Positions 17,504-24,507 of a stretch of 37,818 nt of DNA are shown here, one piece after another. Made by a program: the position numbers and the translations under genes. The notes below the pieces were generated by a model that saw nothing but the letters and a program-made list of their open reading frames with translations, searched no databases and was not told the DNA's origin. The DNA is from Candidatus Pacearchaeota archaeon CG10_big_fil_rev_8_21_14_0_10_34_76. GTDB taxonomy: Archaea; Nanobdellota; Nanobdellia; Pacearchaeales; GW2011-AR1. Every line of letters begins with the position of its first letter. Within the stretch, counting starts at the first letter, position 1. The stretch is taken from NCBI GenBank assembly GCA_002763075.1, contig PFDB01000004.1, forward strand, positions 24,084-61,901. Reading direction: 5' to 3'.

Positions 17504-17548
17504 TTGTTGATTAGAAAAGCTCTTAAAAGCATTTGTTCTAAGTTTAAT

Positions 17549-20437
17549 ATGGCAGATAAAATAATCAATTTTTCCGCTATAGAGAAAAAATGGCAGAAGA
17601 AGTGGGAATCAGAAAAGGCGTTCTTGGCTAAGGACAATGTTAAAGGCAAGAAGAAATATTACATCTTAGAGATGTATCCTTATCCATCTGGGAGCGGGTT
17701 GCATATGGGACATGCATTTAATTATACTATAGGGGATGTTCAGGCAAGATTGAAGAGGATGCAAGGATATAATGTTCTTTATCCTATGGGGTATGACTCA
17801 TTTGGGTTGCCAGCAGAGAATGCTGCCATAAAAGCGAAGTCACATCCAAAGAAATTCACTGAAGAAGCCATAAAGAATTATATAAGGCAACAGAAAGAGC
17901 TTGGGCTTTCTTATGATTGGAGCAGGATGATTCAAAGCCATAAGCCAGAGTATTATCAATGGGATCAGTGGATATTCTTGAAGATGTTTGAGAGAGGTTT
18001 GGCATATAAGAAAAAAGCTCCTGTAAATTGGTGTGGGAAATGTAATACAGTTTTGGCTAATGAACAAGTAGTGAATGGGAAGTGCTGGAGGCATGAAGAT
18101 ACGGAAGTTGAAATAAAACATTTAGAACAATGGTTTTTGAAAATAACTGATTATGCTGATGAGCTTTATGAGGGCTTGAATAAACTTGATGGGTGGCCTG
18201 ATTTCATAAAGACATTGCAGAGAAACTGGATTGGAAAAAGTGAGGGAACAGAAGTTGACTTTTTAGTTGATGGAAATCCGTGGAGAGTGTTTACAACTCG
18301 TGTAGATACTCTTTTTGGAGTTACTTTTTTAGTTGTTTCTGCACAGCATCCAGAGTTGATGAGTTTAGTTACTAATGACAAAAAAAAGGAAGTTGAGAAC
18401 TTCTTGAAGAAAATTAGAAGCACTAAGGAAGAGGATATGGACAAGCTTTCTAAGGAAGGAGTTTTCACTGGTTCATACGCAATACATCCGTTGACTGGGA
18501 AAAAAATACCTGTATGGACAGGGAATTTTGTTGTTGCAGATTACGGAAGTGGGATGGTTATGGGGGTTCCTGCACATGATGAGAGAGATTTTGAGTTTGC
18601 TAAGAAATATGGATTGGAGATAAAGCAGGTAATTAGACAATCTTTTGGGGAGGCCAAGGAGGATGAAGAGAAACGTTTTACTATTTCAGCTGTTGTTCAA
18701 AGAAAATCAGATAAAAAATTTTTATATTTAAAATGGAAGGAGTTTGGATGGGTGGCTCCAGTTATTGGGGGAATAGATGGTAATGAAACTCCTGAAAGTG
18801 CGGCAGAAAGAGAGGTTTTTGAAGAGACTGGATATAAAGCAAAAGCAGTTGGGAAATTAGGTTTACCATTTGAAGCACATTTTTATGCAGATAATAAAAA
18901 GGTTTGGAGACATAGGATAGATCAGCCAATATTATTGGAACTTATTTCTGATAATCCTGAAAAATTGAATAAAGAAGAGTCTTCAATGCATGAGGTTAGT
19001 TGGTTAAGTAGGGAAGAGGTTGCAAAATTAACAACTCATAGTTATAATTTGATTGGAATTGAGAGATTTTTTGAGGGAGAGAAAGCATTTACAGGATTTG
19101 GTACGCTTGTGAATTCCGAAGGATTTGATGGTTTAAAGAGCTCTGAGGCTAAGGAGCATATTATCAATGCATTGGAAATGAAGAAACTTGGGAGGAAGAA
19201 GACTGCGTTTAGGATAAGGGATTGGCTTGTTTCTCGACAGAGGTTTTGGGGGTGTCCTATTCCAATAATATATTGTGACGAATGTGGGACTGTTCCTGTG
19301 CCTGAAAAGGATCTTCCTGTGAAGCTTCCTGATAATGTTAAATTTGAAGGTGTGGAGAGTCCTTTGAAGAAAGATGAAAAATTCTTGAAAGTTAAATGTC
19401 CTAAATGTGGGAAGAATGGGAAGAGAGAGACAAATACCCTTGATGGGTTTATGGATTCCTCATGGTATTTTTTAAGGTATTGTGATCCTAAGAATGATAA
19501 GAAAATATTTAATTCAAAAAAAGTAAAATATTGGGCTCCAGTTGATCAGTATATAGGGGGAAAAGAACATGCTACGGGACATTTGATATATTTCAGGTTC
19601 TTTACAAAGTTTTTGAGAGATATGGGATTGTTGGAATTTGATGAGCCTGTTTTGAATTTATTCAATCAAGGTATGTTGCATGCTTACGATGGTCAGAAAA
19701 TGAGCAAATCTAAGGGGAATGTTGTCTTGCCTGAGAGTGTTTCAAAGAAATTTGGAATTGATGCAGCAAGAATGTTTTTAGTTTCAGATGGATCTCCAGA
19801 CAAGGATTTTAATTGGAGTGATAAAGGAACTGAAGGAAGCTTGAGATTTATTTTGAAAGTGATTAATTTTGTTAGTACATTTAAGTCTGGGAAAATGGAC
19901 AAACTTAAAGAGAGCAAGTTGCACAAGATCATCAAAGAATATACTTCAAATTTAGATGATTTCAATTATAATATTGCTGTGATAAAAATTAGGGAATTAT
20001 TTGATGTGCTTGAAGAAGGATGTGATAGGAAGAGCTTGGAAATATTTTTGAAAATGCTTTCGCCAATATGCCCACATGTAGCTGAAGAGCTTTGGAGCAA
20101 GATTGGAAAGAAAGAATTTGTAAGTTTGGAGAAATGGCCAGAATATGATGGGAAAAAGATCGATATCGAGTTAGAGAAAAAAGCTGATGCGGTGGATAAG
20201 ACAATTGAAGATGTGAAGAACATATTAAAGATAATGAGAGAGAGAAATGGGGGAGAAGGAAAGAGGATTTACATTTATGTTCTTCCTAATGAAAAAGCTT
20301 TCTATGATGAGAAAAAATTGGGAGAGAGATTAGGAAGAGGAGTCTGGGTTTATGCTGTGAATGATCCTAAGAAGCATGATCCCGAAGGAAAGAGCAAGAA
20401 AGTCAAGCCAGGAAGACCAGGGATTTATATTGAATGA
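17549..20437 (+). CDS. leuS: Leucyl-tRNA synthetase, bacterial type, with an inserted Nudix domain
   Basis: YPYPSGSGLHMGH, GMVMGVPAHDERDFEFA, RDWLVSRQRFWGCPIPI, GQKMSKSKGN; true start is probably ATG at 17549. Confidence 0.95.
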   Translation: MADKIINFSAIEKKWQKKWESEKAFLAKDNVKGKKKYYILEMYPYPSGSGLHMGHAFNYTIGDVQARLKRMQGYNVLYPMGYDSFGLPAENAAIKAKSHPKKFTEEAIKNYIRQQKELGLSYDWSRMIQSHKPEYYQWDQWIFLKMFERGLAYKKKAPVNWCGKCNTVLANEQVVNGKCWRHEDTEVEIKHLEQWFLKITDYADELYEGLNKLDGWPDFIKTLQRNWIGKSEGTEVDFLVDGNPWRVFTTRVDTLFGVTFLVVSAQHPELMSLVTNDKKKEVENFLKKIRSTKEEDMDKLSKEGVFTGSYAIHPLTGKKIPVWTGNFVVADYGSGMVMGVPAHDERDFEFAKKYGLEIKQVIRQSFGEAKEDEEKRFTISAVVQRKSDKKFLYLKWKEFGWVAPVIGGIDGNETPESAAEREVFEETGYKAKAVGKLGLPFEAHFYADNKKVWRHRIDQPILLELISDNPEKLNKEESSMHEVSWLSREEVAKLTTHSYNLIGIERFFEGEKAFTGFGTLVNSEGFDGLKSSEAKEHIINALEMKKLGRKKTAFRIRDWLVSRQRFWGCPIPIIYCDECGTVPVPEKDLPVKLPDNVKFEGVESPLKKDEKFLKVKCPKCGKNGKRETNTLDGFMDSSWYFLRYCDPKNDKKIFNSKKVKYWAPVDQYIGGKEHATGHLIYFRFFTKFLRDMGLLEFDEPVLNLFNQGMLHAYDGQKMSKSKGNVVLPESVSKKFGIDAARMFLVSDGSPDKDFNWSDKGTEGSLRFILKVINFVSTFKSGKMDKLKESKLHKIIKEYTSNLDDFNYNIAVIKIRELFDVLEEGCDRKSLEIFLKMLSPICPHVAEELWSKIGKKEFVSLEKWPEYDGKKIDIELEKKADAVDKTIEDVKNILKIMRERNGGEGKRIYIYVLPNEKAFYDEKKLGERLGRGVWVYAVNDPKKHDPEGKSKKVKPGRPGIYIE
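18674..19072 (+). other. Nudix hydrolase domain inserted in LeuRS
   Basis: GGIDGNETPESAAEREVFEETGY matches Gx5Ex7REUxEExGU exactly (about 18767-18835). Confidence 0.9.
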
Positions 20438-21986: not shown

Positions 21987-24152
21987 TCATTCCACGATTG
22001 CTTTAATACGTCTTACACCTGCTGAAGAGGATTCTTCCTTTAGGATTTTGAATTTTCCAATTTCCTTTGTATTCTTTACATGAGGGCCTGTGCATATCTC
22101 TTTTGAAAACCATCTGCGATTGTCTGTTGAATCCTGGATTGTATAAACCGAAACTTTTTCAGGATATTTATGGCCAAATTCTGCTTGTGCTCCTTCTGCA
22201 AGAGCTTTCTTGAATGGAAGTTCCTGACTTTCAACTTTTAGAGAAGAGGATATTTTTTTATTTACAAGAGTTTCAACCTTTTTTATTTCTTCAGATGTGA
22301 GTTTTCTTGGGAAATTGAAGTCAAAGCGAAGCCTTTCAGGAGTTATGTTAGAACCTCTTTGCTTGATATCTGGACCAAGAACTTGTCTAAGAGATTCATT
22401 TAATAAATGGGTTGCTGTGTGAAGTCTTGTTGTTTTTTCCGAATTGTCTGCAAGACCTGATTTGAACATTCCTGAAGAGGCTGTTCTTGAAAGTTCTTGG
22501 TGTTTTTCAAATTCTTTCTGGAATTCTGATTTTTTCATCTTTATTCCTTTTTCTACACAAAGTTCCTCAGTCATTTCAATAGGAAATCCATAAGACTGGA
22601 AAAGCAAGAAAGTTTCTTTTCCAGAAAGATATTTTTTGTTTTTTATTAGTTTTTCAAATTCTGTAATTCCTTTTTCCAAGGTGTTTCTAAATTTGTTTTC
22701 TTCTTCATCAAGTTGTGAGAGTATGAAATTCTTATTTTTTTTCAGTTCTTCGTAGTCGGGATAGATTTTATGGATTGAATCAAAAAGTTTTGTTGTAAAA
22801 TTTTCTTTAATACCTAACATGAATCCATGTCTTACTGCACGTCTTATTAACCTTCTAATTATGTAACCTTGTTGAACATTTGATGGCTTAATTTGATGAG
22901 GGTCAGCGAGTATCATAGTTGATGCCTTGATATGGTCTGCAATTATTCTTATCGAGGCTTTTGTATCCCCATCAGAATCGTATCTTTTTTCAGAGATTCT
23001 TTCTATTTCTTTTACTATTGGCAGAAAGACTGGAGATAAATAATTGTCATTTAATCCATTTAGGATAGAAATTGTTCTTTCAACTCCACCTCCGAAATCT
23101 ATATTTTTTTGCTTTAATGGAATGAATGCATAGATGTTATCTGTGATAAATTTCTTTATTGAATTTATTCCATCATAATGTTTAGATAAAATCCCTAATT
23201 TTTTAGCAGTCTCAACATTTTTTTTATCATGATCAAAGTAGATAACTTCCTCTGGAACAAGATTAAATTGTTTTAATAAAGTTTCAAAATATTTAGGATC
23301 ATCCTTTTTTATTTTATGTTCTTCTAAGGAGAATGCTTCCCAGTTTGCAGGAAAATTCGTGCTCTTTACTAAATTTCTTCCTTCATCTCTAAACTTATTT
23401 ACTGCCAATAAATAATGTGTGTTAAAACTATGAAGAAAATTCAATAGTTCACTATTCAAGTCAAAGTCTTCATTATACAAACAATGCATTCCATCGACCA
23501 ATATTAATCTTTTATCTTTATTATATTGCATTAGAACGTTATTCCCTATTTCTACCCAGTTTTTGTCAGAGACATTAAATTTTTTTGGAGGAGGATTATT
23601 CTTTCCAGGATGATTCCAGTAGAATATCTCTGTATCAGGGCCGCATGGGCCTGTGTTTCCTGCAGGACCCCACCAATTATCTTTTTTACCCAGGAATGCT
23701 ATGTGTTCTTTTGGAATCTTGAGAGATTCCCAAATTTTTGCAGACTCTTCATCTTTGGGAGAATCTTTATCTCCTGTAAAGCATGAGACTGCTAACTTTT
23801 CTTTTGGAATCTTTAGTTCTTTTGTGAGAAATTCAAAACTCATTTCTATAGCTTCTTCTTTCCAGTAATCTCCAAGAGACCAATTACCAAGCATTTCGAA
23901 AAATGTGTGATGTGTGGAATCCCCGACCTCATCTATATCGTCCGTACGGAGACATTTTTGAACATTGACTAATCTTTTTCCTAAGGGATGTGATTGTCCT
24001 GTCAGATATGGAACAAGAGGGTGCATGCCTGCGGTTGTGAAGAGGACTGTAGGATCATTCGAAGGAATAAGTGAGGATGAAGGAATCTCTTTATGATTTT
24101 TCTTTTTGAAGAAATCAACATATTTTTTTATTAATAGCTCACGTGAGATCAT
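21987..24152 (-). CDS. alaS: Alanyl-tRNA synthetase with an inserted HAD-like domain and no C-Ala domain
   Basis: FTTAGMHPLVPYLTGQSHPLGKRLVNVQKCLRTDDIDEVGDSTHHTFFEMLGNWSLGDYWK; editing motifs HTATHLL and CTGPHV; true start is probably MISREL at 24152. Confidence 0.95.
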   Translation of the reverse strand: MISRELLIKKYVDFFKKKNHKEIPSSSLIPSNDPTVLFTTAGMHPLVPYLTGQSHPLGKRLVNVQKCLRTDDIDEVGDSTHHTFFEMLGNWSLGDYWKEEAIEMSFEFLTKELKIPKEKLAVSCFTGDKDSPKDEESAKIWESLKIPKEHIAFLGKKDNWWGPAGNTGPCGPDTEIFYWNHPGKNNPPPKKFNVSDKNWVEIGNNVLMQYNKDKRLILVDGMHCLYNEDFDLNSELLNFLHSFNTHYLLAVNKFRDEGRNLVKSTNFPANWEAFSLEEHKIKKDDPKYFETLLKQFNLVPEEVIYFDHDKKNVETAKKLGILSKHYDGINSIKKFITDNIYAFIPLKQKNIDFGGGVERTISILNGLNDNYLSPVFLPIVKEIERISEKRYDSDGDTKASIRIIADHIKASTMILADPHQIKPSNVQQGYIIRRLIRRAVRHGFMLGIKENFTTKLFDSIHKIYPDYEELKKNKNFILSQLDEEENKFRNTLEKGITEFEKLIKNKKYLSGKETFLLFQSYGFPIEMTEELCVEKGIKMKKSEFQKEFEKHQELSRTASSGMFKSGLADNSEKTTRLHTATHLLNESLRQVLGPDIKQRGSNITPERLRFDFNFPRKLTSEEIKKVETLVNKKISSSLKVESQELPFKKALAEGAQAEFGHKYPEKVSVYTIQDSTDNRRWFSKEICTGPHVKNTKEIGKFKILKEESSSAGVRRIKAIVE
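23136..23516 (-). other. HAD-superfamily-like domain inserted in AlaRS
   Basis: LILVDGMHCLYNEDFDLNSELLNFLHSF...EEHKIKKDDPKYFETLLKQFNLVPEEVIYFDHDKKNVETAKKLGI; absent from canonical AlaRS. Confidence 0.7.
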
Positions 24153-24183
24153 AAAAGAATCTAGAACATAGAGTTTTTTAAGG

Positions 24184-24507
24184 TTATTGTAATCTTGCAA
24201 GCTTTGCTTTTATCTCGTCCAGCTCATCTTCTAAATCATCTCTGCCTCGAGAATAACGTGCCCTAATTTTAGAAGTTTCTCTAATCTTATGAGATACTCT
24301 CGGCAGTAATGAATCTAAAATTTTTATTTCCTCTTTGAGTTTAGATATTTTCTTTTTTGCAAGAGATTTTAACTTGAATTCTTTTTCTCGGAGTTTTTGA
24401 AAGTTTTGATGTGCCTTTTTTATGTTTAGCATTTCTAACTGAGAATATAAAAGATTTTTTTTGGAGTACGTCTGTTCAGAGATATCAAGCTTTATGTATT
24501 CCATCAT
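24184..24507 (-). CDS. Coiled-coil protein of unknown function
   Basis: Charged heptad-like sequence; overlaps both neighbouring genes in the alaS operon. Confidence 0.5.
   Translation of the reverse strand: MMEYIKLDISEQTYSKKNLLYSQLEMLNIKKAHQNFQKLREKEFKLKSLAKKKISKLKEEIKILDSLLPRVSHKIRETSKIRARYSRGRDDLEDELDEIKAKLARLQ

Follow-up and report, generated by a model that had tools for sequence, protein, structure and literature searches.

A putatively active Nudix domain nested in the editing domain of an archaeal leucyl-tRNA synthetase, with a history probably separate from that of the synthetase

Aminoacyl-tRNA synthetases are regarded as conservative markers and as drug targets. The locus described here raises the question of how one of them came to carry a second enzyme inside its proofreading domain, and what that second enzyme does. 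It lies in the window, by which we mean the whole 37,818-nucleotide stretch of DNA that was analysed (contig PFDB01000004.1, positions 24,084 to 61,901), from Candidatus Pacearchaeota archaeon CG10_big_fil_rev_8_21_14_0_10_34_76. This host is an archaeon that we class as DPANN-type from its gene content and its genome of 0.9 Mb. The original prediction, made from the sequence alone, was that the leucyl-tRNA synthetase (LeuRS) encoded here holds a complete Nudix hydrolase domain in its CP1 editing domain, where canonical LeuRS has a short loop. The window also encodes a tRNA-intron endonuclease (Pfam) and, from a reading of the translations, RadA-like and archaeal-DNA-ligase-like genes.

The leuS gene occupies positions 17549..20437 of the forward strand. 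Its frame is open from 17504 to 20437 (977 codons) and has its first methionine at 17549, the likely ATG start, from which 962 codons are counted. The product is a bacterial-type LeuRS: it scored 898.6 against the NCBIfam model TIGR00396 (leuS_bact; cut-off 548.4), whereas the archaeal model, leuS_arch, gave 241.8, below its cut-off of 648.5. For the CP1 editing domain, the N-terminal part matched PF13603 at residues 240–391 (18221..18676, forward strand) with 205 bits. This family was found in 168 of 279 genomes of the host phylum and in none of four archaeal control genomes, so a bacterial-type LeuRS is not unusual for this phylum. The HIGH motif (here HMGH, 17702..17713), the T-rich editing-site motif TTRVDT (residues 264–269, 18293..18310), the Asp motif of the editing site, HDERD (residues 358–362, 18575..18589), and KMSKS (19697..19711) are all present on the forward strand, both editing motifs intact. 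All four showed near-complete conservation in an alignment of 60 LeuRS sequences (TTRxDT in 59 and HDxRD in all 60). An AF2 model of the whole enzyme reached a pLDDT of 90.5 and a pTM of 0.82, and its best PDB matches in Foldseek were the LeuRS structures 1h3n and 2bte (TM 0.77–0.78 on the target). Thus, the enzyme shares domain order, HIGH, KMSKS, CP1 editing motifs and fold with Thermus thermophilus LeuRS (TIGR00396; 1h3n/2bte). It differs in having an archaeal host and in carrying a Nudix domain of ~140 residues in place of Thermus residues 365–373. Because the editing motifs are intact, we ruled out that the Nudix domain substitutes for a lost editing function. Each of 16 genomes examined (16/16) had one strong LeuRS match, which indicates that the composite protein must work; a non-essential duplicate LeuRS was seen in none of the 16.

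The boundaries set by an insert-free LeuRS profile place the inserted domain at residues ~385–524, in the loop that we call site C of CP1 (18656..19075, forward strand), close to the 18674–19072 that had been proposed. The alignment to 1h3n ends at query residue 379 (1h3n residue 364) and restarts at query residue 526 (1h3n residue 374), so that ~146 residues of the window LeuRS replace nine in the Thermus loop. In an 831-residue LeuRS of the same family as the host (L022), the loop is empty and reads KKVVEADKLPFSGYGVLVNSEGFDGL.

The HMM search suggested in the original prediction matched the Pfam family NUDIX (PF00293) to LeuRS residues 396–510 with 44.6 bits, against a cut-off of 21.1. The Nudix box had been called perfect, and it is: GGIDGNETPESAAEREVFEETGY (residues 422–444, 18767..18835, forward strand) matches GX5EX7REUXEEXGU exactly. 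Modelled alone by AF2, the insert had a pLDDT of 95.1 and a pTM of 0.88; modelled within the whole enzyme, it had a pLDDT of about 90–96 per ten-residue block. Foldseek matched it to the MutT/Nudix protein 2azw (E 2e-10, TM 0.81). Together, the Pfam match, the AF2 model and Foldseek exclude a chance Nudix-like string or an ordinary CP1 fold. The insert shares the box and the fold (TM 0.71–0.81) with 2azw, the Ap4A hydrolase 3i7u and the Ap6A hydrolase Ndx1 (1vc8), all of the PF00293 superfamily, but it is only 20–25% identical to them and is embedded in another enzyme. LeuRS inserts form a Nudix subfamily of their own, with a conserved WK(x3)W before the box and K..NR after it.

Loss of the catalytic glutamates in relatives would have argued against enzymatic activity; instead, the three Glu columns were kept in 106/106, 104/106 and 105/106 related Nudix domains. 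In ten close pairs with finite dS, the dN/dS of the insert was 0.03–0.28, the same order as in the core, although several dS values exceed 1 and these ratios are rough. The retained glutamates and the purifying selection in close pairs lead us to predict that the insert is very probably a catalytically competent Nudix enzyme. The third-position GC content (GC3) of the insert was 0.20, lower than in all 543 equal-sized stretches of the LeuRS core (minimum 0.286).

The same insert, in the same loop, was found in 12 of 371 genomes of the host phylum (3%). The original prediction carried an impression of similar insertions in Patescibacteria, which was borne out: about 53 of 380 patescibacterial genomes (about 14%) had the domain in a long frame, and 29 of 30 fetched loci proved to be LeuRS, the exception (L175) being a free-standing relative. 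Named carriers include Kaiser-, Taylor-, Magasanik-, Moran-, Berkel-, Buchanan-, Gracili- and Saccharibacteria; the Nudix domain is also present in the LeuRS of several Bacilli/Mycoplasmatota MAGs. Among 245 sampled Bacillota genomes, a long frame with the insert occurred only in the genome at the centre of the sample, which confines it to a few Bacilli-type lineages. An insert-bearing LeuRS is usually the sole LeuRS of its genome. Occurring in 12 of 371 phylum genomes and in many bacteria, the insert can be put down neither to chance nor to faulty assembly, and the many independent genomes that carry it exclude an assembly chimera. An intein was rejected as well: no intein-type Pfam family was found in the window LeuRS or in other insert-bearing LeuRS, and the window insert ends without Cys/Ser...His-Asn. 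The relative L175 (187 aa) and a similar protein, L055 (189 aa), are free-standing Nudix proteins of the LeuRS-insert subfamily, and might be source or escape forms.

We compared the history of the insert with that of the LeuRS core, using a core tree of 168 rows from which all inserts had been removed. The archaeal rows formed a single clade (support 100) that excluded Patescibacteria, a result that refuses the idea that the insert was brought in with a patescibacterial LeuRS gene. Insert-bearing LeuRS were scattered among insert-free sisters, and the Nudix state of site C changed 32 times on this tree. In the Nudix tree, which rests on ~142 columns and leaves many forks unresolved, the window insert belonged to a clade (support 100/100) whose inserts are archaeal in five cases and patescibacterial in four. 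AU tests (p<1e-12) rejected a single clade of archaeal inserts (delta lnL 240) and, on the core tree, a clade of the six tested cores that bear the window subtype (delta lnL 912, p 2e-73) and one of six cores that bear the subtype of L016. L010 and L016 come from one genus and have sister cores with different Nudix subtypes, and their identity falls sharply at the edges of the insert. In the window gene, the outlying GC3 of the insert agrees with a separate history. Within their family, f12, the loop that is filled in the window holds the window-type Nudix (L010), the other Nudix subtype (L016) or a serine hydrolase (L281 and L284).

These data bear on vertical inheritance with loss, whereby an ancestral LeuRS had the Nudix domain, most lineages lost it and the incongruence is tree noise. 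The identical site C of most copies, the shortness of the domain and its weak deep forks would fit this account, but the strong AU rejections in both directions, the two subtypes on sister cores in one genus and the serine hydrolase at the same loop within f12 make it highly improbable. The insert-coding segment has very probably moved horizontally apart from the LeuRS core, and the simplest account of the two trees would be its transfer between LeuRS genes, including across the boundary between Bacteria and Archaea. What is new here, as far as such trees can tell, is that insert and core have separate histories. The insertion had been proposed as a mark of cross-domain transfer; this stands for the insert, whose archaeal copies lie among patescibacterial ones, but not for the LeuRS gene, since the archaeal cores form a clade of their own.

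Site C is one of several LeuRS loops that accept foreign domains. Insertions cluster at profile positions ~213, 242, 371, 443, 486, 519 and 645 and comprise, besides Nudix, RBBP9-like serine hydrolase, HAD, Ham1/ITPase, ASCH, NTase-like and unclassified domains; Nudix is by far the most frequent family at site C. L177 and its sister L263 differ at one and the same loop, with a Nudix domain in the former and a serine hydrolase in the latter. One patescibacterial LeuRS of 1735 aa (L038) contains three Nudix domains, one serine hydrolase and one HAD domain, and another of 1795 aa (L254) contains HAD, Ham1, Nudix, an unclassified segment and NTase.

Further insertions were observed along the way. 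Two to five inserted enzyme domains, drawn from Nudix, HAD, Ham1, serine hydrolase, ASCH-like and NTase domains, occur in the patescibacterial LeuRS L254, L038, L034 (1360 aa) and L255 (1221 aa). Archaea and Patescibacteria have in common a site-C domain (L242 2341–2697, L248 1932–2291, L257 2230–2601) that had no Pfam match in the two examples examined, L242 and L257; the site-C inserts of L256 and L258 resemble it by eye. An insert of 178 residues near LeuRS profile position 519 (L260 2841–3374, and L233) had no Pfam match. Two IleRS-like synthetases of Patescibacteria (L145 410–4228 and L146 219–3896, both on the reverse strand) contain an inserted histidine phosphatase (PF00300, 134 and 109 bits).

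The window itself provides another case. Shortly downstream of leuS lies alaS (21987..24200, reverse strand; PF01411, 434.7 bits), which encodes an alanyl-tRNA synthetase (AlaRS) with a HAD-like insert of its own (23127..23519, reverse strand). By phmmer, this insert is homologous to the LeuRS site-B inserts L246 and L250; the match to L246, from a genome of the same family, had an E value of 1.4e-20 and 37% identity. The domain also occurs in AlaRS frames of six other sampled genomes, in LeuRS frames and as free-standing relatives of ~135 aa, one of them in the host's own genome (C19:5135–5515). In this HAD-like domain, the DxD motif typical of HAD seems to lack its second acidic residue (VDGM / VDAV). 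The window AlaRS is a second instance of enzyme-domain insertion into a synthetase.

One possible explanation for this patchwork is a selfish or neutral process, in which domain DNA spreads by entering an essential gene at a loop that tolerates it, from where it is not easily lost, any activity being incidental. The patchy distribution, with repeated gain, loss and swapping, and the occupation of the same loops by several unrelated families would be expected from it. Against it stand the purifying selection on the catalytic residues and on the whole sequence and the failure to find a mobility gene, and we regard it as distinctly improbable. We think it more likely than not that LeuRS, and partly AlaRS and IleRS, in Patescibacteria and DPANN-type archaea are a docking platform for interchangeable active hydrolase domains (Nudix, RBBP9-like serine hydrolase, HAD, Ham1/ITPase, ASCH, NTase and histidine phosphatase), which would spread horizontally as in-frame cassettes between synthetase genes, across Bacteria and Archaea and independently of the synthetase. 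A curated precedent is the NCBIfam entry NF040702 (ileS_w_GNAT), a class I synthetase (IleRS) with a foreign enzyme domain; here both the synthetase and the domain, an N-acetyltransferase, are different, and the entry as listed mentions neither interchange nor cross-domain spread. Jumbo phages have a Nudix domain fused to an NMN adenylyltransferase of the HIGH superfamily (PMC7824862). This protein likewise pairs Nudix with a HIGH-superfamily nucleotidyltransferase, but it is a non-synthetase of NAD metabolism and a fusion, with no insertion into an editing domain.

The best overall explanation, to which we assign a probability of roughly 0.6, is that a normal LeuRS houses an active passenger Nudix domain drawn from an interchangeable, horizontally spread set. 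The LeuRS would charge and proofread tRNA-Leu normally, and an independently folded, putatively active Nudix pyrophosphohydrolase would occupy a loop of the editing domain that permits insertion, making 'two enzymes in one essential gene'. The passenger would perform ordinary nucleotide clean-up, by cleaving a dinucleoside polyphosphate, a damaged nucleotide or another compound of the NDP-X kind, and would take no part in a leucine-editing step. In Patescibacteria with small genomes, archaea of the DPANN type and some Bacilli, its in-frame DNA segment, like those of the other small-enzyme domains in the set, would have passed from one synthetase gene to another through recombination at the few loops that tolerate insertion. 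Against such movement, a non-systematic look saw no hallmark of a mobile element (nuclease, repeats). We infer the passenger role from two observations: unrelated families take the place of Nudix, and the editing site is untouched; between passenger clean-up and a LeuRS-specific role, the balance is about even.

Aminoacyl-tRNA synthetases synthesise Ap4A, and Nudix enzymes hydrolyse NDP-X compounds, Ap4A included. The domain might therefore sit where it does because it destroys by-products of LeuRS, namely Ap4A, other ApnN or misactivated aminoacyl-adenylates. Consistent with this idea, site C is dominated by Nudix, the ApnA hydrolases 3i7u, 1vc8, 4mpo and 9cxx are among the nearest folds and the Ap4A hydrolase 1f3y is among the profile matches (E 2e-6). 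ApnA hydrolases have an aromatic residue ~16–18 positions after the Nudix box, and ~100 of 106 domains have F or Y, which interchange, at +16 and +17. By contrast, the nearest structures mix MutT, ApnA and RppH types, with ApnA hydrolases at Foldseek ranks 3, 8, 18 and 19 amid MutT, RppH and others, and ADP-ribose enzymes rank equally. None of the NCBIfam Nudix equivalogs reached its cut-off with the insert (best ~24 bits). In close relatives the same loop is empty or is occupied by something else (a serine hydrolase, a nucleotidyltransferase, unknown domains); the Ham1, HAD, serine hydrolase and ASCH inserts have no evident link to Ap4A, and the host genome has further Nudix genes. ApnA hydrolysis is plausible but singled out by neither profile, fold nor motif. 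We consider it doubtful that ApnA is the main substrate, and similarly doubtful that clean-up of LeuRS by-products explains the site. What the original prediction proposed specifically, a connection with Ap4A, Leu-AMP or editing, is possible but unsupported, the editing motifs being intact beside the insert.

Five proteins from Bacilli/Clostridia MAGs contain an intact Nudix domain within a decayed LeuRS editing domain that lacks TTRxDT (L031 3210–4055, L033 3219–4061, L036 3195–4049, L046 3138–4040 and L041 1–468). Four are 281–301 aa long, and the fifth is cut by a contig end. In the Nudix tree they form one clade (support 99) nested among LeuRS inserts, and thus probably derive from LeuRS. 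The genome of L031 (G377) also encodes a 944-aa LeuRS, and a LeuRS with the Nudix domain, L089, is in the same MAG. These free-standing proteins could mean that CP1 and Nudix cooperate, contrary to a mere passenger role. Their persistence after the loss of TTRxDT would also suit a regulatory or sensing function: a nucleotide signal bound in the Nudix pocket would act through CP1, which is mobile and rotates in the course of the LeuRS cycle, to adjust editing or aminoacylation by LeuRS. We find such a function improbable, since the metal-binding Glu set is nearly invariant, beyond the needs of mere binding, and the editing motifs show no correlated change.

We found no description of a LeuRS or other synthetase with a Nudix insertion, in Patescibacteria, CPR and DPANN included, in open-licence PMC papers; absence elsewhere is unproven, and the original prediction that the insertion is functionally undescribed agrees with this search. 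An essential synthetase appears repeatedly to take whole foreign enzymes into its proofreading domain and, to judge from the fact that no other LeuRS accompanies it, to stay functional. The inserts would have moved between bacterial and archaeal LeuRS genes with the cores staying in place, a natural domain-level horizontal transfer in an essential gene. LeuRS phylogenies in which inserts are retained can mislead, and the LeuRS loops may offer ready-made insertion sites for protein engineering. The need for local clean-up of synthetase by-products becomes a testable question.
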